A program made the position numbers and the translations under genes. Below, one piece after another: positions 7,643 through 23,135 of a stretch of 64,000 nucleotides of DNA. Source of the DNA: Ruminococcus sp. Marseille-P6503 (GTDB taxonomy: Bacteria; Bacillota; Clostridia; Oscillospirales; Ruminococcaceae); the NCBI RefSeq assembly GCF_900604945.1, contig NZ_UWPB01000002.1:496001-560000 (forward strand), read 5' to 3'. The notes under the pieces are model-generated. The model made no database searches. It was not told where the DNA came from and saw only the letters and a list, made by a program, of their open reading frames with translations. The number at the start of each line of letters is the position of its first letter. Positions within the stretch are counted from its first letter, which is position 1.

Positions 7643-8821
7643 ATGTACTCGTTTTTACTTGCGCTTATTTATATTGCGTTTATCAGTCTGGGGCTTCCTG
7701 ACTCGCTTCTCGGCTCGGGGTGGCCCGTTATGCACGGTGACCTGAATGTTCCGATATCCTTTATGGGAATCGTATCTATGGTAATATCAGGGGGAACGAT
7801 TGTATCAAGTCTTTTTTCTGACAAGCTGACCAGGAAGCTCGGCACTCGTATGGTAACCGTGATCAGCGTATTTCTTACGGCGGTTGCCTTGTTCGGCTTT
7901 TCCTGCGCGGATCAGTTCTGGCAGATAATGATATTTGCCGTTCCCTATGGTCTTGGCGCCGGAGCGATCGACGCCGCGCTGAATAACTATGTCGCTCTCC
8001 ATTATACGTCAAGGCACATGAGCTGGCTGCACTGCTTCTGGGGTGTAGGAACGATAGTAAGTCCGTTTGTCATGAGCTATGCTTTAACTAATTCCTCCTG
8101 GAATAACGGATACCGTATCGTTGCGTTCATTCAGCTTGGCATAGGGCTGCTTCTTCTTGTCACTCTCCCTGTCTGGAAAGTCAACAAGCAGGATATTCAG
8201 GCTGACGCCGGAGGTATCGGATTGACCGGCGCGCTGAAGATCAGGGGAGTCCCGACTCTTTTGACCGGCTTTTTCGCATACTGCGCGGCGGAAGCAACCG
8301 CAATGTACTGGGCGAGCACCTATCTTGTTGAGGTCAAGGGCATAACAACAGAGCAGGCGGCGGGGTTTGCCTCATTGTTTTACATAGGGATAACCGCCGG
8401 CAGATTTCTCAGCGGCTTTATAATGAATAAGCTGGGCGACAGAAGGATGATTATTCTCGGTACCTGCGTTCTGTCCTGCGGGATTATTTCCCTGCTGCTT
8501 CCTGTAGCGAATCCGACTGTTTCGCTTGCCGGCTTTATAATTATCGGATTTGGCTGCGCGCCGATATATCCCTGCATTATTCATTCAACACCGAGTAATT
8601 TCGGGGCGGAAAATTCCGGAGCGATTATCGGTATCCAAATGGCGAGCGCTTATGTCGGCTCCACGTTTATCCCTCCGCTGTTCGGGCTTATCGGCAATTT
8701 GATCGGCTTTAAGATACTTCCTGTATATCTTGCGGTTTTTATTGTTTTAATGATAAGCATGACAGATCTGACATTTCGGATAACAGCCAAAAAAGACCGT
8801 AGGAAGGAGGCGGCTGAATGA
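7643..8821 (+). CDS. major facilitator superfamily transporter
   Basis: A 392-residue protein with about 12 predicted membrane helices and the loop motif SDKLTRKLGTR after TM2, typical of MFS proteins. A second copy of that loop, NKLGDRR, lies in the C-terminal half. Its stop overlaps the next start by 4 nt, so it is translationally coupled to the DUF1848 gene. Substrate unknown; MarR control suggests drug or metabolite efflux. Confidence 0.82.
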   Translation: MYSFLLALIYIAFISLGLPDSLLGSGWPVMHGDLNVPISFMGIVSMVISGGTIVSSLFSDKLTRKLGTRMVTVISVFLTAVALFGFSCADQFWQIMIFAVPYGLGAGAIDAALNNYVALHYTSRHMSWLHCFWGVGTIVSPFVMSYALTNSSWNNGYRIVAFIQLGIGLLLLVTLPVWKVNKQDIQADAGGIGLTGALKIRGVPTLLTGFFAYCAAEATAMYWASTYLVEVKGITTEQAAGFASLFYIGITAGRFLSGFIMNKLGDRRMIILGTCVLSCGIISLLLPVANPTVSLAGFIIIGFGCAPIYPCIIHSTPSNFGAENSGAIIGIQMASAYVGSTFIPPLFGLIGNLIGFKILPVYLAVFIVLMISMTDLTFRITAKKDRRKEAAE

Positions 8822-9771
8822 TTATCAATACAGGCGGAAGAACGGATACCGTACAGTATTATACCGAATGGCTGCTCAACAGATTTAAGGAGGGCTATGT
8901 TTTAACCCGCAATCCGCTTTTTCCGAACAAGGTAAATCGTTATGAGCTGGACCCCGGTAAGGTTGACTGCGTTGTGTTCTGTTCAAAAAATTACAAGCCG
9001 ATTTTATCGGGGCTGCATGAAATCACAGACCGTTTCAATACATATTTTCATTACACCATCACCGCCTACGGCAAGGATATTGAGCCGGGCGTTCCGCCGA
9101 TCGAGGAAAGTATGCATACGCTTGTCAGCCTGTCGGAGCAGGTCGGCAGAAAGAGGGTCGCATGGCGGTATGACCCTGTTTTGCTTACTGAAAAATATAC
9201 GGTTGAAACGCATCTGCAAACCTTTGAGCATATGGCTGGCGTGCTTGCGCCGTATATCGACCGCTGTATTTTCAGCTTTGTAGAAATGTATAAAAAGCTG
9301 AAAACGAATATGCCGGAGCTTATCCCGCTGACCGAGCGGGACAAGGAAAAACTTGCCGAGGGACTTGGCGGGATTGCGGAAAAATACGGTATTGCTATAC
9401 AGACCTGCGGCACAAACGGGGATTATACCCGTTACGGTATTAACAAGTCCGGCTGCATGACGCTTGACATTCTCGGAAAGGCAAACGGTATAGAATTCAA
9501 GAACCTGAAGCACAAGGGTACGCGGCAGGGCTGTCATTGTATTGAAAGCCGTGACATCGGAGCATACGATACCTGTATGAACGGCTGTAAATACTGCTAC
9601 GCAAACAAAAGTTCGCGCAGGGCGTTTGAAAATTATAAGTATCATGATCCAGCCTCTCCCCTGCTGCTCGGCGGACTTGAACCCACCGATACGGTTATGC
9701 AGGGAGCGCAAAAATCATTCAGAAAAGGTCAGAGCTATGCCGGAATTAAAAATAGAACGAATCCAGGTTAA
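8818..9771 (+). CDS. DUF1848 family protein
   Basis: A 317-residue protein of a family known mainly as a domain of unknown function. It opens with MIINTGGRTD and the LTRNP motif and ends with a cysteine cluster including CMNGCKYCYAN, resembling a radical-SAM CxxxCxxC motif but at the C-terminus. Overlaps both neighbours (4 nt with the MFS gene, 35 nt with the radical-SAM gene), so the genes form one tight operon. Biochemical role is not established. Confidence 0.85.
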   Translation: MIINTGGRTDTVQYYTEWLLNRFKEGYVLTRNPLFPNKVNRYELDPGKVDCVVFCSKNYKPILSGLHEITDRFNTYFHYTITAYGKDIEPGVPPIEESMHTLVSLSEQVGRKRVAWRYDPVLLTEKYTVETHLQTFEHMAGVLAPYIDRCIFSFVEMYKKLKTNMPELIPLTERDKEKLAEGLGGIAEKYGIAIQTCGTNGDYTRYGINKSGCMTLDILGKANGIEFKNLKHKGTRQGCHCIESRDIGAYDTCMNGCKYCYANKSSRRAFENYKYHDPASPLLLGGLEPTDTVMQGAQKSFRKGQSYAGIKNRTNPG

Positions 9772-10636
9772 AAGTATTTTATCAAAATCAAACCTGCCTG
9801 TCTGCGAATATTCGGTTAATCCGTACGTCGGCTGCACTCACGCCTGCAAATACTGCTATGCTTCCTTTATGAAGCGATTTACAGGACACAGCGAGGAATG
9901 GGGAACGTTTCTTGACGTTAAGTATTGGAATGAGATAAAAAATCCGCGGAAGTATAACGGCAAGGAGCTGTTTATCGGCTCGGTCACAGATCCGTACAAT
10001 CCGCAGGAAGAAGAATACGGACGGACGAGGGCTTTGCTTGAGCAGTTGAAGGGCAGCGGCGCGAAGCTCAGTATTGCCACAAAATCGGATCTGATACTGC
10101 GTGATCTGGAGCTGATCGGCTCATTTCCCGACGCCCGTGTGTCGTGGTCGGTCAATACGCTGGACGAGAGCTTCAAAGACGATATGGATAAGGCGGTATC
10201 CATAGAACGCAGACTTAACGCAATGAAAGAATTTCATAGGGCGGGCGTACGCACTACCTGTTTTATTTCTCCTATATTTCCCGTAATAACCGATGTGAAG
10301 GCTATCATTGAACGGGCAAAGGAGCACTGCAATCTGATTTGGCTGGAAAATCTGAATCTGAGGGGCGGCTATAAGGCGGTAATTATGGATTATATCGCCG
10401 ACAAATATCCGCGGCTTTTACCTCTTTATCAGACTGTTTACAACCGGAATGACCGCGGCTACTGGCAAGCGCTCGACGGAGAGCTGAAGGAGTACGCCTC
10501 CCGAATCGGTCTTGACTATGTAACCAATGACGACAGTATGACAAGACCGTTTGACGCGCCGCCTGTTATCGTCAATTACTTCTATCATTCAGAAATTAAA
10601 AAATCAGCAGCAAGGGGCGGTGTGAAAAATGCCTGA
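9737..10636 (+). CDS. SPL-like radical SAM protein
   Basis: About 299 residues. The radical-SAM motif is GCTHACKYCYASF at about residues 31-43, binding a 4Fe-4S cluster and SAM. The remaining (beta/alpha) core resembles the Rv2578c/SplB-like group that acts on nucleic acids. The longer frame from 9626 is rejected because ATG 9737 has a GAAAAGG site and the recognisable N-terminus MPELKIERIQ. Coupled to mutM by an 8-nt overlap, which suggests a DNA-repair or nucleic-acid context. Confidence 0.82.
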   Translation: MPELKIERIQVKSILSKSNLPVCEYSVNPYVGCTHACKYCYASFMKRFTGHSEEWGTFLDVKYWNEIKNPRKYNGKELFIGSVTDPYNPQEEEYGRTRALLEQLKGSGAKLSIATKSDLILRDLELIGSFPDARVSWSVNTLDESFKDDMDKAVSIERRLNAMKEFHRAGVRTTCFISPIFPVITDVKAIIERAKEHCNLIWLENLNLRGGYKAVIMDYIADKYPRLLPLYQTVYNRNDRGYWQALDGELKEYASRIGLDYVTNDDSMTRPFDAPPVIVNYFYHSEIKKSAARGGVKNA

Positions 10637-11453: not shown

Positions 11454-12351
11454 CGGACTTCGCCGCCAAAACATCAGAAACATAATATATGTAATATTAT
11501 AATGAATAAGATAAATTGGGCATAGTATTGATATATTGAGACATAATAATACAAATTATAAAAAAGTTAAATTGTTTTATTTCAGATATAACTTTAGAGC
11601 AAATTAATTTTTTATTGGTTTATTTTTTTGTTCATATATGTACACTGAATCCGATTTAATAATCAAGTACGATGTATGATGAGCATAATAAAATTTATTT
11701 TATGACTTATTAATAATTTTAATTTCTATATTAGTTGAAAAAATATGAAAAAAATTATTATATTTTTATCGACTGTTGTTTCGTTTTCTTATTTTTCATT
11801 TTCCAAAAATACTGAACACGCATTATCTCCAAATCGGTATTGGAAAATGTGAAAAGCGAGTACGGAACGGATAAAGGTAAGGTAGAGATAGATGTCCTGT
11901 TGGTTCTAAATGGAAAGTTCAATTCTTAGTTTAAGAGATCGTAAAGTCGATTTATACAACAAATGCTATTGAGTTTTTATTATCAGATGGTGACCACAGC
12001 AAAATGTGTATTTAGAATTGCTGACAGTCTGTTCAAAATGCTGTAACTAGTGATGAGACATATCACCAAAAGTGGGGCGTATGTCATCAGGGCAGTAGTC
12101 AAATCTATGCTTATCTTATTATTTTGTGCAATTACAGAACTGGAATAACGTTTTTTGTTTTGACAACAGAACTTATTTTCATTAATTGTAGATAAGAGCG
12201 CCGGGAGTACCGACGGTCTGGTTATAGGTTTTTCTATTTTATTTTTGTACGCTATTTGGTGATTACACAGATTTTGAAAATGAATTATAAACACGATTTT
12301 TATGTTTACTGGAGGAATTGCGTACTATTTAATAAGAAAGTGTACAGTTAT
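11454..12351. other. AT-rich junction without a convincing gene
   Basis: Base composition drops sharply right after mutM. A 35-codon ORF at 11745-11852 (begins MKKIIIFLSTVVSF, signal-peptide-like) lacks a ribosome site. A minus-strand frame at 11983-12294 has no recognisable content. I read the stretch as the decayed edge of the inserted island; no terminator for the ABC gene ending at 12352 is obvious. Confidence 0.4.
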
Positions 12352-14130
12352 TTAAATTTTATAGTATTGCGCCTGTGCATTAAACATTTTATAGTATATG
12401 CTATCAGATCTTTTTATAAGTTCTTCGTGCGTTCCGATTTCTTTTATGGTTTTTTCAGAAAAAACAAAAATTTTATCACAAAATTGACAACTTGAAAGCC
12501 TATGTGATATATATAATGTTGTTTTGTTTTGAGTCAATTTATTAAAATGTGCATAAACTTCATTTTCGGCAACTGGGTCAAGGGCTGCAGTTGGCTCATC
12601 TAATATTACCATTGGTGAATTTTTATGTAAAGCTCTTGCTATTGCAATTTTTTGTTGTTCGCCACCAGATGGTTCTATTCCATTTTCATCAAATTGTTTG
12701 TAAATAGTTGTATTTTCACCAAATAAAAGAGCATCAATCTTTTGGCGTAAGCCAACTTTGTTAATTACTTCGGTTATATCGTCGTAATTGTTTTGAGCAA
12801 TGTTTTCTTTTATTGAAAAAGCAAAAAGTTTAAAATCCTGAAAAACGACAGAGAATAAACTAATATATTCTTGATAATCGTATTCATTTATATTAACTCC
12901 ATCAAGTAAAATATCTCCGCTGCTTGGTTTATATAAACCGCATAGTAATTTAATAAATGTAGTTTTACCGGCTCCATTTAACCCTACGATTGATATTTTG
13001 TCTCTAGCGTAAATTTTGATTGATATATTTTTTAATACATATAACTCAGTGTTAGGATATTTGAAACTTACATTTTTAAATTCAATTTCATGATTTGGTA
13101 TATTTTTTATTTTTCTTGATCCATTATGATTTACAGATGGTATACTCATATAGTTAATAAACTCCGAAATATATCCTGTTTTTTTTATTATTTCTTGCAA
13201 ATCCATTATTATTAATTGACTTGACGAAAATAATGTGGATCCAGCATTTATTGCTTTAATAAAAAGTCCTATAGTAAGTTGTTCAGTTATTACAAGCCAG
13301 CCTAAATATAAATAAATAATACTATTTTTTAAAGAATTTGAGATTGTTGTTTTTATATTATATTTTAAAAAAATTGAACTTTGCTTTTCGATTATTGAAA
13401 AGCGTTCATTTATAATTTTAGATCCTTTTTCCAACATCATTTCTTCGGCACTATACAAACGTATGTCTTTCCCATTTTCAAAGCATATCATTTGATATAA
13501 AAAATATGTAAAAATGCGAGCGGTTTTTGACATATCTTCATATGCGGATGCTTCTGTAATGTTAATTTTATAATTATAATAGCTGGTTATTATTAAAAGC
13601 ATACTTATAATTAACAATATTAACGGAGCTTTTGATGCAATAACTGATATGGCAATAAAAGTTTTTGTTATATTGGATATAATGTTAAAAAAATGCTGAC
13701 TTATACCATGCATACCTCCGGAATACTCGAAAATTCCTTGTTTAGCCTTTTCTATTTGATCTAATATCATTTTATTTTCAGTATCTTGATAATCAATTTC
13801 CATTGATTTTTTACTTATCATTTCTAAAAATTTATTGTCAAAATAAGTATTATATTTTTCTAATTGTAAAGTCAATATATTACTGATTAAATAAGATAAT
13901 CCTTCGATTGCTGTAAATATTATTGCTTTTACAAAAATAATTTTTATTGAAACATCTTTTATTAAATCATCAATAATCAGAGGTAGGAAATTTAATGATA
14001 TAAACAGTAAAAATATATCAAATATTATTTTTAATAACCATAAATAAAAATAGGATCTACGATTATTCCATATAATAAAAAATATATATTTTAAAGTATG
14101 CATTACTTGAAATATTTTTGTTTTATTCAT
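12352..14130 (-). CDS. ABC exporter half-transporter, TMD-NBD (second of pair)
   Basis: A 592-residue fusion of six membrane helices (about 1-310) with an ATPase domain. Walker A GLNGAGKTTF, signature SGGEQQK, Walker B MVILDEPTAALD, H-loop SHRLSS. No N-terminal C39 peptidase domain. It overlaps the preceding ABC gene by 8 nt and the two share the C-terminal motif MF..QAQYY, so they are paralogues and probably form a heterodimer exporting the island's product. Very AT-rich. Last gene of the minus-strand operon. Confidence 0.9.
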   Translation of the reverse strand: MNKTKIFQVMHTLKYIFFIIWNNRRSYFYLWLLKIIFDIFLLFISLNFLPLIIDDLIKDVSIKIIFVKAIIFTAIEGLSYLISNILTLQLEKYNTYFDNKFLEMISKKSMEIDYQDTENKMILDQIEKAKQGIFEYSGGMHGISQHFFNIISNITKTFIAISVIASKAPLILLIISMLLIITSYYNYKINITEASAYEDMSKTARIFTYFLYQMICFENGKDIRLYSAEEMMLEKGSKIINERFSIIEKQSSIFLKYNIKTTISNSLKNSIIYLYLGWLVITEQLTIGLFIKAINAGSTLFSSSQLIIMDLQEIIKKTGYISEFINYMSIPSVNHNGSRKIKNIPNHEIEFKNVSFKYPNTELYVLKNISIKIYARDKISIVGLNGAGKTTFIKLLCGLYKPSSGDILLDGVNINEYDYQEYISLFSVVFQDFKLFAFSIKENIAQNNYDDITEVINKVGLRQKIDALLFGENTTIYKQFDENGIEPSGGEQQKIAIARALHKNSPMVILDEPTAALDPVAENEVYAHFNKLTQNKTTLYISHRLSSCQFCDKIFVFSEKTIKEIGTHEELIKRSDSIYYKMFNAQAQYYKI

Positions 14131-15997
14131 TTGTTAATGTCTCCTCTGCATAAGAATTATTGTCATTATTATAGTATTGAGCTTGAAGCATAAACATATT
14201 ATAATATTGTCCTTTTAAGCTCATAAGTTCTTGATGAGAACCATATTCTGTAATCATACCATCATTAAATAAAGCAATTTTATTGCAAAACTGTATTGAA
14301 GATAGCCGGTGAGAAATATATATAACACTTTTATTTTCTGTTAAACTATTAAAATTAGTATACAGTTTATGTTCGGCAATAGGATCAAGGGCAGATGTAG
14401 GTTCATCAAGGATAATAATTGGTGAATCTTTATATAATGCACGAGCAAGTGCAACCTTTTGACATTCGCCACCAGATAATATTACACCATCTTTGTGTAC
14501 TACGTTAAGCATTTCTGAAGTAATTCCTTTTTCTAAGCTGTCAACTTTTTCCTTTAAGCCGGATTTCACTATCTTATCGTATGCTTTTTGCGAGTCTGTA
14601 TTTTCTGGCGTGGACATAGATATATTTTCTGACAATGGGAAAGCGAATATCTCTATGTTTTGAAAAACAGGAGAAAATAGCTTATAATATTCTTTGCGTT
14701 TATATTTTTTTATATTTATACCATTTATGAGTATTTCCCCTTTAGTAACATCATAAAGTCGTACAAGAAGTTTAACAAATGTTGTTTTTCCAGCACCGTT
14801 AAGTCCTACAATGGCAAGTTTTTCTTTTGAATTTATTGTAATATTAATATTCTTTAATGTAAATACTTTTTGTCCGGTATATTTAAAGCTAACATTTTTA
14901 AATTCAATAATATATTCATCAGAATTAGGAATTGGTAAGCAACTATCCTCATTATCATCATCGTTTATTTCAATATATGAACGAAAGTCATTCATTTCCA
15001 TTGAACGTTGCTTAAATGCTCCAATATTATTAAATATTTGCTTTACAGATGATGAAAAGACGCCAATTGTACCTATATAAAGCGTAAAATTGCTAATTGA
15101 CAGATCATTGTATATTACACAATAAATTAGATAACTATAAACAATTATATTTTGAATTATTGACATTATAGAAACAAAAATAGAATTAGAAATCCAAATA
15201 TTTTTGCTATTACATACCTTCTTATATTTAAATTTGAGAATAGAACGATATTTATCCAATAGCCAATTCTTCATATTAAACAGACGTATATCCTTGGCAT
15301 AAGAAAAATCCTGTGTTATATGCATTAAATAATTCTCTTTTCGCCATACGGTCGCAAGTTTATCCCATGTTTCAATTTTATCCTTCTTAGCGGCATATAT
15401 ATAATATAAATACTGCAGAAAAGAGATGAAAATTATTCCAACTATAATCCATAAATTAAAATAAGCCATTACAGAAGCGGTTATAATTAATAAAATAATA
15501 TTTGTGAGAAAGAAAAAAGTTGCACTCATCATTCCGATTATGCCTGTATTATTGCTTATAGTCGCTTGTTCGGCTTTTTCCATTTTGTCAAGCATTTCTG
15601 GATTTTCAAGCATTTCGTAATTAATATTTAAGGACTTTTTTATTTCTTCTTGGAGCATTTTTTGACGAACATAGGAAAAACCTAAATTCATTTTGGTTGA
15701 TCCAATAACATTGAAGATAGATAAAGTAAGTTCTAAAACGAAAATAATTGTTAACAAAACAAGTAATGAGTTAATATTCTTTGATTCAGTTGAAGATTGA
15801 TATGTTATAATATCTATAATCAGCTTACTAAAAAAACTCCACATATACGTTGCCGAAGCTGTTGTAATAGAGCAAATAATAACAATATAAAATACGGATT
15901 TTTTATACTGTCTGATTTTGCTTAAAGTATAAATAATATTATTAACTATTCCATGCGCTTTGGAACAGTTTAAATTAGTTTTTTTCTTAAATAACAT
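14123..15997 (-). CDS. ABC exporter half-transporter, TMD-NBD (first of pair)
   Basis: A 624-residue TMD-NBD protein. Walker A GLNGAGKTTF, signature LSGGECQKVALARAL, Walker B IIILDEPTSALD, catalytic His in SHRLSS. Both ATPase sites of the pair look competent. The ribosome site AAGGAATGATAAG lies right after the carrier-protein stop. It lacks a leader-cleaving peptidase domain, so precursor processing would fall to the subtilase of the same operon. Confidence 0.9.
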   Translation of the reverse strand: MLFKKKTNLNCSKAHGIVNNIIYTLSKIRQYKKSVFYIVIICSITTASATYMWSFFSKLIIDIITYQSSTESKNINSLLVLLTIIFVLELTLSIFNVIGSTKMNLGFSYVRQKMLQEEIKKSLNINYEMLENPEMLDKMEKAEQATISNNTGIIGMMSATFFFLTNIILLIITASVMAYFNLWIIVGIIFISFLQYLYYIYAAKKDKIETWDKLATVWRKENYLMHITQDFSYAKDIRLFNMKNWLLDKYRSILKFKYKKVCNSKNIWISNSIFVSIMSIIQNIIVYSYLIYCVIYNDLSISNFTLYIGTIGVFSSSVKQIFNNIGAFKQRSMEMNDFRSYIEINDDDNEDSCLPIPNSDEYIIEFKNVSFKYTGQKVFTLKNINITINSKEKLAIVGLNGAGKTTFVKLLVRLYDVTKGEILINGINIKKYKRKEYYKLFSPVFQNIEIFAFPLSENISMSTPENTDSQKAYDKIVKSGLKEKVDSLEKGITSEMLNVVHKDGVILSGGECQKVALARALYKDSPIIILDEPTSALDPIAEHKLYTNFNSLTENKSVIYISHRLSSIQFCNKIALFNDGMITEYGSHQELMSLKGQYYNMFMLQAQYYNNDNNSYAEETLTNE

Positions 15998-16001
15998 CTT
16001 A

Positions 16002-16229
16002 TCATTCCTTATTTTTAGATTGTAAATGCTTCTCTACAATAAAAACAATTGAGTCAATATTCAAAAAGTAATCTATACGAAAGTATTCATCTTCAATTGT
16101 TATTAAAAATTCTTGCTCTAATGAAACAATTAATCTTATAAAATTTATGGAGTCTAAGTTAACTATATTTCCATTATTAGATGTTGCAATTCCTATTTGC
16201 GAAAGCAATTCAACAATTTTTTCTTTCAT
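16002..16229 (-). CDS. acyl/peptidyl carrier protein
   Basis: A 75-residue four-helix carrier protein. The phosphopantetheine site is LDSINF with Ser27, followed by the acidic recognition helix (LIVSLEQEF). It is not followed by fatty-acid synthesis genes, nor is any adenylating or holo-ACP synthase gene present nearby, so it must be activated and loaded by enzymes encoded elsewhere or not recognised here. It begins 2 nt after the subtilase gene; its ribosome site (GGAGGATTAATT) lies in that gene's end. In this context it probably carries an acyl or aminoacyl group for the BtrH-like protein. Confidence 0.78.
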   Translation of the reverse strand: MKEKIVELLSQIGIATSNNGNIVNLDSINFIRLIVSLEQEFLITIEDEYFRIDYFLNIDSIVFIVEKHLQSKNKE

Positions 16230-16231
16230 AA

Positions 16232-18043
16232 TTAATCCTCCGTTGCAGCAAGACTATCTAAAATTGTTTGAGTTAAGAACATCAAATCGTGTTCATTACC
16301 TAAAATGTAAATTGATTGATCAAAGTTTTGTTTTAATTTGTTAATATAGTTTTTTAGAGTTATTTCAGATGAGGGCCTTGTAATTAAATTGCAAAAATCG
16401 GTTAATGATTTTTCCATAGGGAAAACTACAATTGCGACAACTCGACTGTTAAAGCTTTCGGCATAAAGACATGTCCTTTTTATATAGTCAATATCATCAT
16501 TTAAATTTACTAAGAGTATGGTGATGTCAGGCAACACAGACATAAAGAAATTATTGCTTTCTAAAGATAAATTTGAAGTTAAGTAATAATCATAAGGGAT
16601 AAGAGATGATTGTCCCCCTACTATTATTAAATCTGCATTAGAACTTTCGATATTATGAATAGCTTGGTTTATTGCTTGAATAAATTCATAGTTATAAATA
16701 TCAACAGAGGAATTATATCCATATGCAAATTGATAATCAAATCCAAATAAACAGGAAGTAGGTTCAGAGCCTATTTGGCCAACTTTGTAACCAATTTCAA
16801 TAAACTTTTTTCTTAGTTGAAGTTGCAAAGTAAATTTTCCTTGTTTTGATGAGGTGCCAAATACACCAACAATTGGTTTATTGCTAACAAATAGTTTTCC
16901 TCTATTTTCTATAGGAACTGCTTCCTTACCTACAGTTGGAAAAAATACTTGGTAATTATTATAAATAAGATTGCCGAAGTCATCATAAAAAGTACGGTGT
17001 GGTCTGTCGAAGCAATAAATTTTCTTGTTATGTTCTAATGCTTTATTTATATACTCTTTTAATAAATCCTTTTTCAGTAATTTGCTTATAATGTTAACAT
17101 GACCTAAAATTAGCATATCGAAATCTTCTTCCCAATTTATATTTTCGATATTTTCTACATATTTAGTACCCTCATAACTAAAATTATCAATTAGGTCAGC
17201 TAAAGGTTTACCTACATTTCCACAATATTTACTATCATAAAAATGCGAAATTTCAAATTTTAACATTTCCGAAAAACGTAAAACAGAGTGCATCTCTTTA
17301 TTCATTGGAAATGTAACTGCTTTTTTCACACCATCTAAAAAATTTTTTTTATTGAAATAGCCAGATCTTTTTTCATCTACTAATTGACTTTTACTAGCGA
17401 GAATATCAAAAAGGTCTTTTTTATTTTTTATTGAATAAGGCAAATTGCAGATGTTATTATAAATTAATGCGGAAACATAAGCGGCAGCATAACTGGTACC
17501 TGAAACAATCATCTGTTTATTATCAATCCATTGTACTCTATAAAAATTCTTAGGCATAGTAATGTCTATAATATTGCTATTAGAAATAATTAAATTAGAT
17601 ATATTTTCATTAATATCTACGCCTATAACCTGAGTCATACAAGCTGGATACGACATAAAACCTTCATTATTAAAAGGACTTATAATTAATGTACCGTTTT
17701 TAGTTATTTCAGTTATTATATTGTTCAATTTGTCAAGATTATCAGCGCATTTCAAGCCTGAACTTATGTTTATAATTTTACATTCAATATAATTATAAAC
17801 AAATTCTAAAGCGTCAATATAATAGTTAAAATCAGTATCTAAGCTATTAAATGCCTTAATGATAAATATTTTGCTTTTAGGTGCATTTTGTTTTATTATA
17901 TCATATATTGCTGTTCCATGACCAAATGTATCGGAGACATCGTTTCCTTTATTCAAACAATTGTATCTTCCCTCAATATTTTCAATACATTTGGGAGCTA
18001 TTCCTGTATCTATAATAACAATATCTGACTTTATTTTTGACAT
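16232..18043 (-). CDS. S8 subtilase fused to DUF1611-like P-loop domain
   Basis: A 603-residue cytoplasmic-looking protein without signal peptide. Residues 1-240 are a compact subtilase: Asp12 (DTG), His42 (GHGT), oxyanion Asn near 125, Ser184 (GTSYAAA). Residues 250-600 resemble DUF1611: a Rossmann-like part, Walker A GTSSKQGKFT (396-405) and GGQSSL (476-481). Subtilases in peptide clusters often remove leaders, so the likely substrate is the 58-residue peptide encoded divergently at 18532. DUF1611 proteins include P-loop acyltransferase-like members, so the C-terminal half may modify or activate rather than cleave. First gene of the minus-strand operon, with a strong AGGAGGAAT site. Confidence 0.8.
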   Translation of the reverse strand: MSKIKSDIVIIDTGIAPKCIENIEGRYNCLNKGNDVSDTFGHGTAIYDIIKQNAPKSKIFIIKAFNSLDTDFNYYIDALEFVYNYIECKIINISSGLKCADNLDKLNNIITEITKNGTLIISPFNNEGFMSYPACMTQVIGVDINENISNLIISNSNIIDITMPKNFYRVQWIDNKQMIVSGTSYAAAYVSALIYNNICNLPYSIKNKKDLFDILASKSQLVDEKRSGYFNKKNFLDGVKKAVTFPMNKEMHSVLRFSEMLKFEISHFYDSKYCGNVGKPLADLIDNFSYEGTKYVENIENINWEEDFDMLILGHVNIISKLLKKDLLKEYINKALEHNKKIYCFDRPHRTFYDDFGNLIYNNYQVFFPTVGKEAVPIENRGKLFVSNKPIVGVFGTSSKQGKFTLQLQLRKKFIEIGYKVGQIGSEPTSCLFGFDYQFAYGYNSSVDIYNYEFIQAINQAIHNIESSNADLIIVGGQSSLIPYDYYLTSNLSLESNNFFMSVLPDITILLVNLNDDIDYIKRTCLYAESFNSRVVAIVVFPMEKSLTDFCNLITRPSSEITLKNYINKLKQNFDQSIYILGNEHDLMFLTQTILDSLAATED

Positions 18044-18075
18044 TATGATTCCTCCTATCTTTTATAATTACTTTT

Positions 18076-18104
18076 ATTATACATCAGTTTTTTGATAAAG
18101 TCAA
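18076..18104 (-). promoter_or_regulatory. promoter of subtilase-ACP-ABC operon
   Basis: On the minus strand TTGACT (18104-18099), 17-nt spacer, TATAAT (18081-18076), about 35 nt before the subtilase start. Confidence 0.7.
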
Positions 18105-18133
18105 CAATTTTAGACATTTATCGCAAAAAACTA

Positions 18134-18161
18134 TTGACTTTATTATTTTTTGTAGTATAAT
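18134..18161 (+). promoter_or_regulatory. promoter of precursor-peptide operon
   Basis: TTGACT 18134-18139, 16-nt spacer, TATAAT 18156-18161. It is back to back with the subtilase promoter and shares the word TTGACTTTAT. It implies a leader of about 360 nt before the peptide gene. Confidence 0.65.
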
Positions 18162-18169
18162 ATAAATAT

Positions 18170-18531
18170 AGGTTAATCTATTTAATCACATGAAATTTTA
18201 CAAAAAAATCTATAGAGAAACATGATTTATAGATAAATTTAATTATTGTTAGTGAAAACATTGAAAGAGCTTTAGCCATGGGTTTAAAATGCGTGTTGAT
18301 ATACTCAGAAACAATGTATCGACATAGCAGATCAATTTGAAAAAATGTTGAAAAAATGAACGCTGTAGTGAGAGCATGGATGACATATACATAAGACTTT
18401 TGTTCTAAGGATAATTATGTGATTTCAGTCATTGCTTTTATTATAGTCTATACATGAGTATGAGTAAACCATACAGATTAGCTATGGTTTATTCTACTAT
18501 AAATAATTATTGTCACAGGAGGTGAAAATAA
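18170..18531 (+). promoter_or_regulatory. long untranslated leader of precursor peptide with hairpin
   Basis: No convincing gene. A 9-bp perfect inverted repeat, TAAACCATA (18465-18473) and TATGGTTTA (18483-18491), lies about 40 nt before the peptide start. A 20-codon frame at 18278-18340 lacks a ribosome site. The length suggests a regulatory leader or a decayed gene. Confidence 0.4.
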
Positions 18532-18708
18532 ATGAATAAAGTTAAACTTGTGAAAATCCGTAAGTCAGCAAGTGAAAAGCCTACACTTTATAGTACAGAG
18601 AGTAATAAGCAGCAGCAGCCTTCTAAATTTAATACTTTTAGCAATGGTTGGTATGTACCATCAAACGATGTGGCCAGATTTGCTCGCGGCTCAGGAACAG
18701 CTTTCTAA
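18532..18708 (+). CDS. small peptide, probable RiPP precursor
   Basis: A 58-codon ORF with an excellent AGGAGGTGA site. The first half is basic and polar (MNKVKLVKIRKSASEK, a QQQ run at 27-29), leader-like. The C-terminal third is aromatic and Gly/Ser-rich (FSNGWYVPSN at 36-45, then FARGSGTAF as the last nine residues). It has no Cys, no double-Gly site and no signal peptide, so it is not a standard lantibiotic, sactipeptide or class II bacteriocin. Its place between two divergent promoters of a modification/export locus, and the hairpin right after its stop, are typical of precursor genes. Function is inferred from context. Confidence 0.72.
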   Translation: MNKVKLVKIRKSASEKPTLYSTESNKQQQPSKFNTFSNGWYVPSNDVARFARGSGTAF

Positions 18709-18720
18709 AAAGTTGGTAGC

Positions 18721-18757
18721 AAATAACGGTCATGACTATGTGTCATGACCGTTATTT
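18721..18757 (+). terminator. strong hairpin after peptide gene (partial terminator or stabiliser)
   Basis: Perfect 16-bp stem, AAATAACGGTCATGAC at 18721-18736 and its complement at 18742-18757, with a 5-nt loop and an AT-rich tail (AATATTATTA) rather than a run of T. It separates the peptide from the next gene, which suggests high peptide and lower enzyme expression from one promoter. Confidence 0.7.
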
Positions 18758-18788
18758 AATATTATTACAAAAAGGTGGTGTATTAAAA

Positions 18789-20318
18789 ATGGGAAGTGAA
18801 AAATTGCCTATAAATACAAGTCCGTTTATAAGGACATATCCAGAATATTTGTTTATTGATACGATAATAAATAACGAATTTACAAATAGTGACTGTATTG
18901 CTAGTATATATATTAAAGATTATGATAAAAGTAAATGGGATTTCTATATTCGAAAGTCAGGTCTTTGTGTCGAAAATAATACTGTTAAGTTTTATAGAAG
19001 AAGTTTTAACATTTCCTCCGCAAGAGCTTTTTTTAGAAAAGTTAATAATGTAAATGATACAGCGGTGTTTCATATAGAACATCAGCAGTATACTAATCGC
19101 TGGGATTGCTTATTATTTTTTGTCGATCAAAATAATTCCAAAGATAAATTAAATTATTATCCTTCTATGAGTTTTGTATTTGGAAGATATTGCAGCGGAG
19201 AAATGTTCGCTATAACAAATGGGGAATATCATAAGATTGATGGTAATGATAGTTATAAATTAATAACGTGGATAAAACTTTGCATTAGTGAAGATGATAT
19301 AGCAGTTTATGGTTCATTTGATGGGATATTATGGAGACTAATTTGTAAATGTGGTAATTTGGGGATATATCCTAGAAACAATACGAAAATTGGCTGTGTT
19401 TCTTGTTTGCTTAATAATCAATATTATAAATGGTTATGCAATAATTTTATTCAAATTAAATTTAATCCAAATGATGAGTGTAGTATGGATTACACAGATT
19501 TTATTAGAAAGGATTATAAAAATTATTATATAAATCCTTTTCTTAAATGTTCTTATGATAATTATAATACATTGAAAAAGTGGTATAATGGATTGTGGAA
19601 TTATATAGTAGCAGGAATACAGCAAAAACGATATATGGAAATTAAATTGAATGAATACTATATCCCAGGATTACAAGCATATCAGAAAATTAATTACTTT
19701 CACGAAAGTTTAATTTACGGATATAATGATGAACATAACAGCGTGTATATTTTATCTATTTATCAAGGTAAACCAAAGGCTTTAGAAGTATCGTATGAAT
19801 ATATACAAAAGGCATGGCTAAAGTCTTCAATAGTTACTTTTGAGTTTTGTCCCAACATGGATAATTATAACTTGGATATTATACATATTTATGATAGAAT
19901 TTGTGATTATTTAAGCAGCCGTAATAGTTCTGAAGATCATCAATATATTTCAGAAATAAATAACGGAGTTTTTGGTTTGAATATTTATAAAGCAATTCAA
20001 AGTTGCAGTAAAATGAAATCAGTATTTTTAAGCGACGTTAGAGCGGCATTTTTAATAAAAGAACATAAGTTGTGCATGATTACTAGATTTCGCTATTTAA
20101 AAGAGTTAGGTTTTATTCCTCAAAAGGAATGGAAGCTTATTAGAAGCTATTTAAGTAAGATAGTTGATATATCAGAACGCATTTTACTGTTAGTTATGAA
20201 AAACAGTACAGTAGAAAGTCTTGATGTTCAGAGCCGTATATGGTCAGCTTTAAATAATTTATATTTATATGAAAAAAGTTGCTATAGTTTGTTTAAAGCA
20301 ATTTTTGAGGTTATTTAA
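18789..20318 (+). CDS. BtrH-like acyltransferase with lectin-like N-terminal domain
   Basis: About 509 residues from ATG 18789 (AAGGTGGTG site; the longer frame from 18732 runs through the hairpin and is rejected). Residues about 20-225 look like a DUF1349/concanavalin-type jelly roll (e.g. AVYGSFDGILWRLI). Residues about 245-509 resemble the butirosin BtrH N-terminal (C39-peptidase-like) proteins of Firmicutes, with NYFHESLIYGYNDE at about 302-315 and a C-terminal helical half. BtrH moves an acyl group from a carrier protein to an amine, and this island has a lone carrier protein, so acylation of the peptide or a product is a reasonable inference. Domain calls are from motif memory. Confidence 0.6.
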   Translation: MGSEKLPINTSPFIRTYPEYLFIDTIINNEFTNSDCIASIYIKDYDKSKWDFYIRKSGLCVENNTVKFYRRSFNISSARAFFRKVNNVNDTAVFHIEHQQYTNRWDCLLFFVDQNNSKDKLNYYPSMSFVFGRYCSGEMFAITNGEYHKIDGNDSYKLITWIKLCISEDDIAVYGSFDGILWRLICKCGNLGIYPRNNTKIGCVSCLLNNQYYKWLCNNFIQIKFNPNDECSMDYTDFIRKDYKNYYINPFLKCSYDNYNTLKKWYNGLWNYIVAGIQQKRYMEIKLNEYYIPGLQAYQKINYFHESLIYGYNDEHNSVYILSIYQGKPKALEVSYEYIQKAWLKSSIVTFEFCPNMDNYNLDIIHIYDRICDYLSSRNSSEDHQYISEINNGVFGLNIYKAIQSCSKMKSVFLSDVRAAFLIKEHKLCMITRFRYLKELGFIPQKEWKLIRSYLSKIVDISERILLLVMKNSTVESLDVQSRIWSALNNLYLYEKSCYSLFKAIFEVI

Positions 20319-20464
20319 TAAACGTTTTTGGCTATGATTGTATTAAGCGTTAAGAAACGTTTTACCAAAATTACAGACATAAAACAGTATGAATACATGA
20401 CTTCTGTCATTCTCATGCTTAATTGTTTGCAAACAAAGTTATTATATAAGGAATGGTTTGTTGG

Positions 20465-21777
20465 TTAGCATATACGAAGTGGAATTGCAAGTATCATGTG
20501 GTATTTGCAACACTTATATGAATCACACAAAGGCAATTGAGATGTGATAGCACAGTTTTCTTTTGCACTAGATATGTATCCGATTACCCGAAAGAACTCG
20601 TTATAGTCCTCTTTAGTGCAACTTTTAATAAAGATACGGCAGTAACACTCATCGTTTTTGTCGACGATATAGATACGCTCCACAAAGGATTGTATCAGCG
20701 TTACCAGCGCATCCGGCTGTGCGTCCTTTGCGTATTTACCGAAGGACAACAGCCTTTCTTTTGTTTCTTCAATATTTCGGACAGTATACATCTGATTACG
20801 CTTGCTGTCCTCTAACTTTTCAGGCAGAGAACACTAACCTCACGCAACTTGTCAACAGGTCTTTTACATTTTCCTGAATAAAGCGTATCAGGTTGTCGCT
20901 TGCATTACGCATATTTTTTACCTGATTGGAAAATGCCGTTTTATGCTGCGCTTTCTTTTTTCAATTATGTTAATTTCTGATTATTTTAAAAATTACTAGA
21001 AATATCTGAAGTTTTGTAAAGTATTAACTGACTTTATCAGAATGATTAGATGATTGCTTTACTACAAATTTATCAAGCAGTACGCCGTCAACAGCTTGGA
21101 AAGTACCTTTGTTTTCGCGGTAGTTGGCGCAGACACACTTAAATTCTGGCTTGTCATTTGTCCAGCGGTTAGATTCGGAAACTACTCTGAGCCGCTTACC
21201 GCAGAAAAGACAGTAAATAAGTCCTGAGAGCAAAGCATTGGTCTTGTGATGCGGTCTGTTGTACTTCCTGGCTATATCATCTAATATGTTTTGTTTATCT
21301 GTCCATATGTTGACTCGGAATAAAGCCCTCGTGTCTGCCGACAAAAAATCCATTCAGAAACAGGTTTTGCGGACATAATCTGCACAAATTCCAGTGAAAT
21401 AGAGGTACTATCTACATTTTCAAATCTCTCTTGGTCTGTCTTGTTGTACGCAGATAAACTGTGCTGAACGCCAAAAGCGGAAAGCTTCTCGCATAACCTT
21501 TGCCGTTTTCGTAAAAATAGTTATACACATTTTAATCAGCAACACAGTAGATGGGTTTTTGGGGAAAAGCTTTGTGGCTGAAGCATTGACTTTAGAGCCT
21601 GCTTTGGTTCGGTAGCCGAGTTTGTTCAATAAGGTCGGGCTGAAAACCCGTTAAATTTATCCTTTGAGCCTTTATCAAGTGCAGGATTTTCATCTTCGGG
21701 CATTTTCTCTCCGCCGAGCTTTCCTTCGTGATATGCAGTGATGAGAGCATATACCTTGTCAATGATATTACTTTCAA
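20465..21777 (-). pseudogene. decayed large serine recombinase
   Basis: Three separate minus-strand frames add up to pieces of one recombinase: about 21777-21420 (NKLGYRTKAGSKVN, recombinase-domain region), 21353-21024 (zinc-ribbon piece ALLSGLIYCLFCGKRL and VDGVLLDKFVVKQ) and 20791-20465 (C-terminal coiled/DUF4368-like piece, LLSFGKYAKDAQPDALVTLIQSF). Frameshifts and stops separate them, and the catalytic N-terminus is missing. It marks an old mobile element at the right edge of the AT-rich island. Confidence 0.75.
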
Positions 21778-21780
21778 CCA

Positions 21781-22518
21781 TTATAGTTTCTCCAAAACTT
21801 CAATCATTTCTCTCCAATCGTGAATATGCAGATATTCAAAATCTATATTCATTTCCGCATTGTCACGAACAGAAGGGTTTTCTTCAGCAGTAGAACCTTC
21901 ATACAGAACAGGGAACATTCCTACACTATATGCGCCATCTACATCGGCATACACGCTGTCACCGCAAAACCATACCTTGTTTGCTGAAAGTCCTGCTTTT
22001 TTGAGTGCAATCTCAAACAAAATCGAATTGGGCTTACGGATAAAATAATCACTTGAAGTCATAACAAATTCAAATTTATTGTTCGGCAGCAACCGGTTTA
22101 ACCGCTTTGTGAGGGCTTCGCCCGACCATGAAAGATTGCTGATAACTGCCGTCTTGATATCTTTTTCATTAAGATAATCAATCATTCTGTCAGCATCGGG
22201 CATAATTGCGCCTACTGACGCGCTGTCCCAGAACACAGTTTCCATTTCTGACGGAGAAAGAGAAAACTCTATACCGAGATAGTCATAAAGCGTTTTATTT
22301 GCAGCCTGCCCACTGATTTCATATCCGTACTCACGCACTTTAGCGACATGCTTGCCATAAATAAGCTCTGCGGCTTTTCTAATATCCTCAACAGTGCAAT
22401 TATGGGAATTTTTTGTAGCATATTTTAAAAGCTCTGCGTTACCACGGTCAGAGTTCCAATCAGGCTCGTATAAAAGCGTATGCCCGTAGTCAAAAATTAT
22501 CATTTCGGGTTTTGTCAT
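21781..22518 (-). CDS. HAD-superfamily hydrolase (DxG motif I)
   Basis: A 245-residue HAD-like phosphatase. Motif I is IIFDYGHTL, with the nucleophile Asp but Gly instead of the second Asp; motif II VISNLS, motif III Lys around IRKP, motif IV WFCGDSVYADVDGA. A helical cap lies between motifs I and II. Starts within the end of the upstream HAD gene (4-nt overlap), so they are co-translated. Substrate unknown; loss of the general acid Asp may weaken phosphatase activity. Confidence 0.8.
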   Translation of the reverse strand: MTKPEMIIFDYGHTLLYEPDWNSDRGNAELLKYATKNSHNCTVEDIRKAAELIYGKHVAKVREYGYEISGQAANKTLYDYLGIEFSLSPSEMETVFWDSASVGAIMPDADRMIDYLNEKDIKTAVISNLSWSGEALTKRLNRLLPNNKFEFVMTSSDYFIRKPNSILFEIALKKAGLSANKVWFCGDSVYADVDGAYSVGMFPVLYEGSTAEENPSVRDNAEMNIDFEYLHIHDWREMIEVLEKL

Positions 22519-23135
22519 AATAGTACCTCTAAAATATCCCGCAATCCTTCCACAGCATAATCCGCCTGCTGAAATTCATTTACCGGCTGCTGATATGCGT
22601 TGAAGCCTTGTTTTACCCATATGGTTTTCATTCCAAGCCTTTTTGCAGGCTCGATGTCATTGTCAAGCCTGTCGCCTATCATAAAAGAATTTTCGGGCGG
22701 ACACTCCGCGCGGCTTAACGCTCTGAGAAAAATCTCCTTGTCGGGCTTTGCGACGCCTTCCTCGGCAGACGCTGCAACAAGTCGTATGTATTTCATAAGC
22801 CCCCAGCTTTCAAGACGGGACTGAGTACCTAAAGATTGATTTGCAATTATACCTATATTGTATCCTTGTTCCGATAATGTTTTAAGGACGTTTTCGGCTT
22901 CGGGATAAGGCTTCATATCCTCCGTATGCCAAGAAGTTTTAGTCAGTCCGAAAAATTTGATTGCTTCGACGTCACTTTTGAGATTCTGTTTTGCAAAGAA
23001 TATGCGTTTCTCGTTGAACTGCTCAAAGGTAATGTCTGTTCCCTCAATAGCGTCACGAATACGGTGGTTGTAGCATTCGGTTTCGTCAATCAGCGTTGAA
23101 CCTATATCAAAGAAAAGCCATATAGATTTGCTCAT
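22515..23135 (-). CDS. HAD-superfamily hydrolase (DxG motif I)
   Basis: A 206-residue HAD-IA-like protein. Motif I LFFDIGSTLIDE, again with Gly at the second Asp position; motif II GIIANQS; motif III KPDKEIF; motif IV MIGDRLDNDIEPAKRLGM. First gene of a two-gene operon with the next HAD. Ribosome site GGAGGC. Substrate unknown. Confidence 0.82.
   Translation of the reverse strand: MSKSIWLFFDIGSTLIDETECYNHRIRDAIEGTDITFEQFNEKRIFFAKQNLKSDVEAIKFFGLTKTSWHTEDMKPYPEAENVLKTLSEQGYNIGIIANQSLGTQSRLESWGLMKYIRLVAASAEEGVAKPDKEIFLRALSRAECPPENSFMIGDRLDNDIEPAKRLGMKTIWVKQGFNAYQQPVNEFQQADYAVEGLRDILEVLL

Follow-up and report, generated by a model that had tools for sequence, protein, structure and literature searches.

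A 58-codon open reading frame in Ruminococcus sp. Marseille-P6503 (18532..18708, + strand; coordinates refer to the window, the whole 64,000-nucleotide stretch of DNA analysed) raises the question of whether a peptide that lacks the usual RiPP signatures can be a RiPP precursor and, if so, which enzymes would act on it. The frame starts with ATG, and the AGGAGG of its ribosome-binding site (AGGAGGTGA, 18517..18525, +) lies 9 nt upstream of the start codon. Direct reading of the sequence revealed no Cys and no GG among the 58 residues and, by eye, no hydrophobic stretch at the N-terminus. Between this frame and the next gene, folding predicts a terminator- or attenuator-like hairpin with a 16-bp stem–loop (18721..18757, +); the segment 18709-18788 reaches −28 kcal/mol (z −7.4), and 0 of 200 shuffled sequences folded as low. 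The ribosome-binding site, the hairpin and the missing Cys and GG are thus all present as the sequence-only reading had described them. Upstream, a divergent pair of promoter-like sites spans 18076..18161 (18104-18076 on the − strand and 18134-18161 on the + strand, with 11 of 12 matches each), which must be considered weak, because nine such sites were observed against a mean of 7.4 in shuffled sequences. The gene is present as a single copy in its genome, and its GC content (38 %) is above that of its neighbours.

Family models did not classify the peptide. It matched nothing in NCBIfam or PADLOC, and the single weak Pfam match (E 0.14, below the cut-off of the family) was taken as chance; Rfam yielded no match in the region 12000-23000. 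The peptide also failed to match TIGR04065, the model of the CLI_3235 precursor, which recognises 6 of the 43 family members scanned, and it does not possess the Cys-rich core of TIGR04065-type precursors. Its genetic neighbourhood is more informative. On the − strand lie two ABC exporters, the first at 12352..14130 (an ATPase domain in Pfam and whole-length matches to NCBIfam exporter models) and the second, a fused permease–ATPase recognised by Pfam and NCBIfam, at 14123..15997. They are followed by a 75-aa acyl or peptidyl carrier protein with a phosphopantetheine-site Ser in a DS motif (16002..16229, −) and by a 603-aa protein (16232..18043, −), in which family matches, alignment and modelling identify an S8 subtilisin-like protease (D12, H42, S184) fused to a P-loop domain of TIGR04066/DUF1611 fold (G396-K403). 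Downstream of the hairpin, on the + strand, lies a gene for a 509-aa protein (18789..20318), whose predicted structure has a BtrH/CcbD/CtaG-like fold with an insert of approximately 170 aa.

The relationship of the peptide to other precursors became apparent from its N-terminus. Residues 1-24 (MNKVKLVKIRKSASEKPTLYSTES) match the leader of a precursor family encoded beside S8-TIGR04066 genes, in which K-L-x-K(P) is followed by (L/V)Y..E near residues 20-24 and then by Cys-containing cores. The initial seeds of this family were chosen by visual inspection among ORFs preselected for a basic N-terminus, and an earlier, smaller model of 30 hand-picked leaders discriminated more weakly, with 116 of 20,000 shuffles reaching the score of the window peptide. 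The final leader model was built from 81 other precursors, with the window peptide excluded, and assigns the frame 13.9 bits, a score reached by 1 of 20,000 full shuffles and by 5 of 20,000 shuffles of the leader only. Among 4136 short ORFs preceded by a ribosome-binding site in 103 records (some contigs occurring twice), the frame ranks 91st, although most of the higher-ranking sequences had trained the model and score high by construction, whereas the window peptide had not. All 90 ORFs above it contain Cys and are precursor-like, and the first Cys-free ORF ranked lower reaches 7.9 bits.

By homology, the border between leader and core may be placed near LYSTES (residues 19-24), giving a leader of approximately residues 1-24 and a core of approximately residues 25-58. 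Cleavage after residue 23, 24, 25 or 26 would release an unmodified core with a calculated [M+H]+ of 3893.87, 3806.84, 3692.80 or 3564.70, respectively. The earlier statement that the peptide lacks all standard RiPP hallmarks is therefore incorrect, and the QQQ stretch, previously assigned to a leader half, consequently falls on the core side. The expected pattern of a conserved C-terminus with a variable middle was reversed: conservation lies at the N-terminus and variation towards the C-terminus. The candidate's position beside an S8-DUF1611 gene, which had first drawn attention to it, agrees with the leader homology. Taken together, leader and gene context indicate that the frame very probably encodes a precursor of the S8-TIGR04066 family. 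A non-precursor role, either as a short attenuator-type ORF regulating the 509-aa gene that follows it or as a chance frame, draws on the hairpin that directly follows the stop codon ahead of the next gene and on the few shuffles that reach the observed score; it is nevertheless very unlikely, given that the leader is shared with precursors found in other gene orders and that the frame is the best of the 30 short ORFs preceded by a ribosome-binding site in its own locus (the next scores 6.4 bits).

The distribution of such systems was surveyed at several taxonomic levels. Of 394 genomes from the order, 20 contain TIGR04066, five of them above its cut-off, and one genome of the same genus (G003) carries a fused S8-TIGR04066 gene with an adjoining carrier protein, a radical-SAM (rSAM)/SPASM protein and a two-Cys peptide of 46 aa (MKKVLKKKIKNSDNAIHYF...). 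A search of genomic contigs with the single fusion protein of the window returned no relative, and the same search with an alignment of 16 fusion proteins returned 358 stretches with 89 relatives, of which the best 80 were kept (L069-L148). Scans of the class and the phylum added few full-length fusions, and the precursors seen there (L172, L173) contain Cys. No match to S8-TIGR04066 was found on plasmids at E 1e-20. At a threshold of 9.4 bits, set after the list had been seen, 84 precursors were recognised in 54 of 81 loci (the 80 relatives and the window), so that leader-homologous ORFs, the absence of which from related loci had been named as grounds for abandoning the candidate, do occur there. 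The remaining 27 loci hold no precursor at 9.4 bits, and several of them encode lower-scoring, Cys-containing look-alikes (L075, L105, L129, L132, L137, L139). Partner genes recur throughout the 81 loci, with the carrier protein in 64, the 509-like protein in 54 and an rSAM protein in 55; contig ends truncate several loci and thereby inflate the count lacking the latter, and among the 44 loci with 7 kb or more of flanking sequence on each side, 36 have an rSAM protein. Five Spirochaete loci (L101, L111, L113, L115, L116) encode several precursors each, with up to 10 Cys per peptide and a common leader, and one genome (G236) contains four S8-TIGR04066 systems (L045, L050, L054, L058).

Within this set the window peptide is an outlier, as it carries the only Cys-free core among the 84 recognised precursors; none of the 71 precursors in rSAM-bearing loci is free of Cys. 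The cluster also contains no rSAM maturase (TIGR04068 or a relative), and a tblastn search for a remnant found none in the region 11.5-20.5 kb (the best 15 of 351 pieces at E ≤ 10 were considered). With neither Cys nor such an rSAM enzyme in the cluster, the product falls outside the sactipeptides and ranthipeptides, which are defined by rSAM-made Cys thioether crosslinks. Any modification of the product must therefore come from the carrier, TIGR04066 and BtrH-like components or from enzymes encoded outside the cluster. The sole match to the rSAM model in the genome lies on another contig (C7), where a Cys-rich SCIFF-like peptide is encoded together with its rSAM protein (L159, 3011-4619). Within the window, a Radical SAM mobile pair protein B (TIGR04470, 455 bits) is encoded at 9626-10636 (+), beside a DUF1848 protein at 8818-9771. 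Action in trans by an rSAM enzyme encoded elsewhere, on residues other than Cys such as Trp or Tyr, could be proposed on account of these two proteins and of the GWY motif in the core, yet this is the least probable of the explanations considered, since the SCIFF-like locus is all that the model of the relatives' rSAM family detects and the mobile pair protein belongs to another family.

The history of the missing enzyme was approached with a tree of 79 S8-TIGR04066 proteins (a quick IQ-TREE run with SH-aLRT support only), from which two loci with S8 proteins shorter than 420 aa (L145, L148) were left out; 55 of its 79 rows carry an rSAM gene. In this tree the window protein groups with three Paenibacillus proteins whose loci carry an rSAM gene (SH-aLRT 97), and the Bacillota around them mostly carry one too. 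Because its closest relatives in the tree have the enzyme, the absence of rSAM from the window cluster would most simply be explained by loss. No rSAM gene was found with any of the 14 proteins of a deep clade outside Bacillota, which belong to Latescibacterota, Gemmatimonadota and a single Cyclobacteriaceae MAG (L122, L124, L126, L127, L130, L132-L134, L136, L138, L139, L143, L144, L146). Members of this clade share with the window cluster the fusion protein, in many cases the carrier and 509-like proteins, and the lack of a detectable rSAM enzyme, but they form a separate lineage in which the recognised precursors (L122, L124, L126) keep Cys. These precursors are acidic and Tyr-rich, with few Cys. 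A rule that absence of rSAM implies absence of Cys was rejected, given that L122 and L126 have no nearby rSAM gene and still encode Cys-containing precursors; the loss of the enzyme and the loss of its substrates thus need not coincide.

The apparent loss of the rSAM gene could also be a sign of decay. The 1-kb bins of 12001-20000 have GC contents of 24-31 %, compared with 47-49 % at 8-11 kb, 40-50 % at 21-28 kb and 42 % for the window overall, which delimits a low-GC island at 12000-20300. Directly downstream of the cluster lie decayed serine recombinase fragments (20465-21781, −; PF13408 match at 21024-21353). On the basis of this composition and these fragments, the cluster looks horizontally acquired. 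The same features, together with the long end branch of the window protein in the tree (1.32), fit a decaying cluster, in which the core drifted to a Cys-free state after loss of the rSAM enzyme and the product is no longer made. Such decay is distinctly unlikely: all six cluster genes are open frames, the S8 triad, the P-loop and the carrier Ser are kept, the ribosome-binding site and the hairpin are strong, and the precursor gene stands above its neighbours in GC content.

The preferred reading, in which the cluster is active, depends on what the remaining proteins may do. The modelled fusion protein (pLDDT 86) matches subtilisins with Z values of approximately 24, and the catalytic triad of its S8 domain is intact. 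The C-terminal part matches TIGR04066 at 77 bits (E 1.1e-21), which is below the curated cut-off of 200, and also matches DUF1611; its model adopts a DUF1611-type fold, with 2g0t (Z 28.7, 318 residues aligned, rmsd 3.0) and 2obn (Z 26.8) as structural matches. The S8 domain shows its second-best NCBIfam match, after TIGR04066, to QhpE (72 bits, below the cut-off of 165), the protease responsible for leader removal in quinohemoprotein maturation. QhpE is not known to be fused to a DUF1611 domain. DUF1611 includes the N-acetyltransferase DgcN. In the literature considered, dgcN is named only as a key gene in D-amino acid racemization.

Of 68 aligned carrier proteins, 67 keep the phosphopantetheine-site Ser and one is gapped at this position. 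TIGR04069, a carrier-related model, has no match at E ≤ 1, the carrier of the cluster being ACP-like with the conserved Ser. No adenylating enzyme that could load the carrier is encoded in the cluster, and an AMP-binding motif occurs in only three ORFs of all records examined.

The 509-aa protein has no Pfam or NCBIfam match, and its family has none among solved structures by sequence at E ≤ 1. Its model (pLDDT 68, with residues 33-161 mostly below 50) is most similar to CcbD (Z 17.8, rmsd 3.6, 285 residues aligned), AziU3 (Z 17.4) and CtaG (Z 16.3), with other matches near Z 10; across the BtrH/CcbD/CtaG carrier-dependent amide synthases, the values range from 15.8 to 17.8 over 267-295 residues. 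CcbD (celesticetin), CtaG (closthioamide), AziU3 (azinomycin) and BtrH are carrier-protein-dependent enzymes, and a deposited CcbD structure includes a bound PCP domain. Apart from the predicted fold, the likeness extends to a conserved His305 (22 of 24 aligned 509-like members) and to the presence of a carrier protein in the cluster; BtrH_N matches nine of the 24 members, the window copy not among them. The additional insert looks ConA/DUF1349-like by eye, and Pfam DUF1349 is matched in one of the 24 relatives, which is not the window copy. In CtaG and CcbD, the names of the mutant structures (C11A, C19S) suggest a Cys nucleophile, whereas no Cys nucleophile is conserved among the 24 aligned 509-like members, for which reason the 509-aa protein may be non-catalytic; if active at all, it would differ from these enzymes in acting on a ribosomal peptide. 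The 509-like protein goes with the fusion subtype, as it has no match in any of the eight loci in which TIGR04066 is not fused to S8 (L059-L066). Another locus (L155, G657:C18, 5052-11164) encodes a homologue approximately 40 % identical to it; its neighbours there are two ABC transporters, an rSAM-like fragment and an ORF judged PqqD-like by eye, and the 19 kb inspected contain no S8-TIGR04066.

These observations bear on a simpler explanation, in which a precursor of the same family is cleaved by the S8 domain and exported unmodified, the carrier and 509-aa proteins being leftovers or serving regulation or immunity. Such processing would account for the missing rSAM, Cys, loading enzyme and nucleophile, but it is considered unlikely, as the carrier Ser and the neighbouring genes are intact and the carrier protein is the most constant partner in the family. 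Modification of the core in a carrier-dependent manner, suggested by the carrier protein, the DUF1611-type domain and the CcbD/CtaG-like fold, is regarded as an evenly balanced proposition.

Published CLI_3235 systems (TIGR04065/04066/04068/04069) offer the closest comparison. The window system resembles these bacteriocin systems, represented by SacP23, minus the radical step, and is a variant within the CLI_3235-type kind rather than a new class: it shares a leader–core precursor, a subtilase with an intact triad, a TIGR04066-type protein, a carrier protein and ABC export, while TIGR04065, TIGR04068 and TIGR04069 as curated remain unmatched. It differs in the fusion of S8 to TIGR04066, in the BtrH-like 509-aa protein, and in lacking the rSAM enzyme (TIGR04068) and the Cys-rich core that SacP23 has. 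Fused systems of Bacillota and Spirochaetota that carry rSAM share the fusion protein, the carrier, the 509-like protein, the ABC exporters and the leader family with the window cluster but, unlike it, possess an rSAM enzyme and Cys-containing cores. In the SacP23 system of Paenibacillus polymyxa, TIGR04066, the carrier, the subtilase and the rSAM enzyme are described as products of individual genes, and the purified peptide as Edman-blocked, with a mass of 3404 against the predicted 4455 (PMC10731318). In the portions of that report considered here, the block is tied to modifications of sactipeptides and circular bacteriocins, and the roles of carrier- and TIGR04066-type proteins in 'modification' and 'immunity' are given by analogy (PMC10731318). 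For a CLI_3235-type cluster of Roseburia, the corresponding portion of the source lists only the domains (PMC4573289). The blocked N-terminus of SacP23 fits N-terminal acylation without proving it, and the failure of Edman degradation can alternatively result from thioether crosslinks or ring closure, as the SacP23 authors point out. In searches of an open-access library, no paper on the S8-TIGR04066 fusion itself was found.

The explanation put forward here, held with slightly better than even confidence, is that 18532-18708 encodes the precursor of a modified, secreted RiPP of the S8-TIGR04066 family, on which a carrier-dependent module acts and which is related to the products of CLI_3235 systems. 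The precursor would bind the S8-TIGR04066 enzyme through its leader, which the S8 domain would then cleave off intracellularly at about residue 24. An acyl or aminoacyl moiety would next be transferred from the carrier protein to the newly exposed amino terminus (or to Lys), with participation of the TIGR04066 domain, the 509-aa protein or both, and the ABC exporters would secrete the product, probably a bacteriocin or a signal. That the S8 domain removes the leader and that the ABC proteins export the product is suggested by the protein families and the gene context. Among the possible sites, the N-terminal amine exposed by cleavage is plausible and is favoured, and modification at the N-terminus is put forward only tentatively. 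According to this scheme, the radical thioether step of the relatives would have been lost together with its Cys substrates.

More speculative still, and on balance improbable, is the general proposal that the fused protease–DUF1611 enzyme, the carrier and the BtrH/CcbD-like protein constitute a carrier-dependent RiPP modification module, performing N-terminal acylation or aminoacylation or a carrier-tethered release, which would be masked by rSAM chemistry in the relatives and exposed in the rSAM-free, Cys-free cluster of the window. The comparative set of 84 precursors from 81 loci provides a leader model that can be used to find such peptides, and the window member separates the question of what the carrier and TIGR04066 proteins do in CLI_3235-type systems from thioether chemistry.
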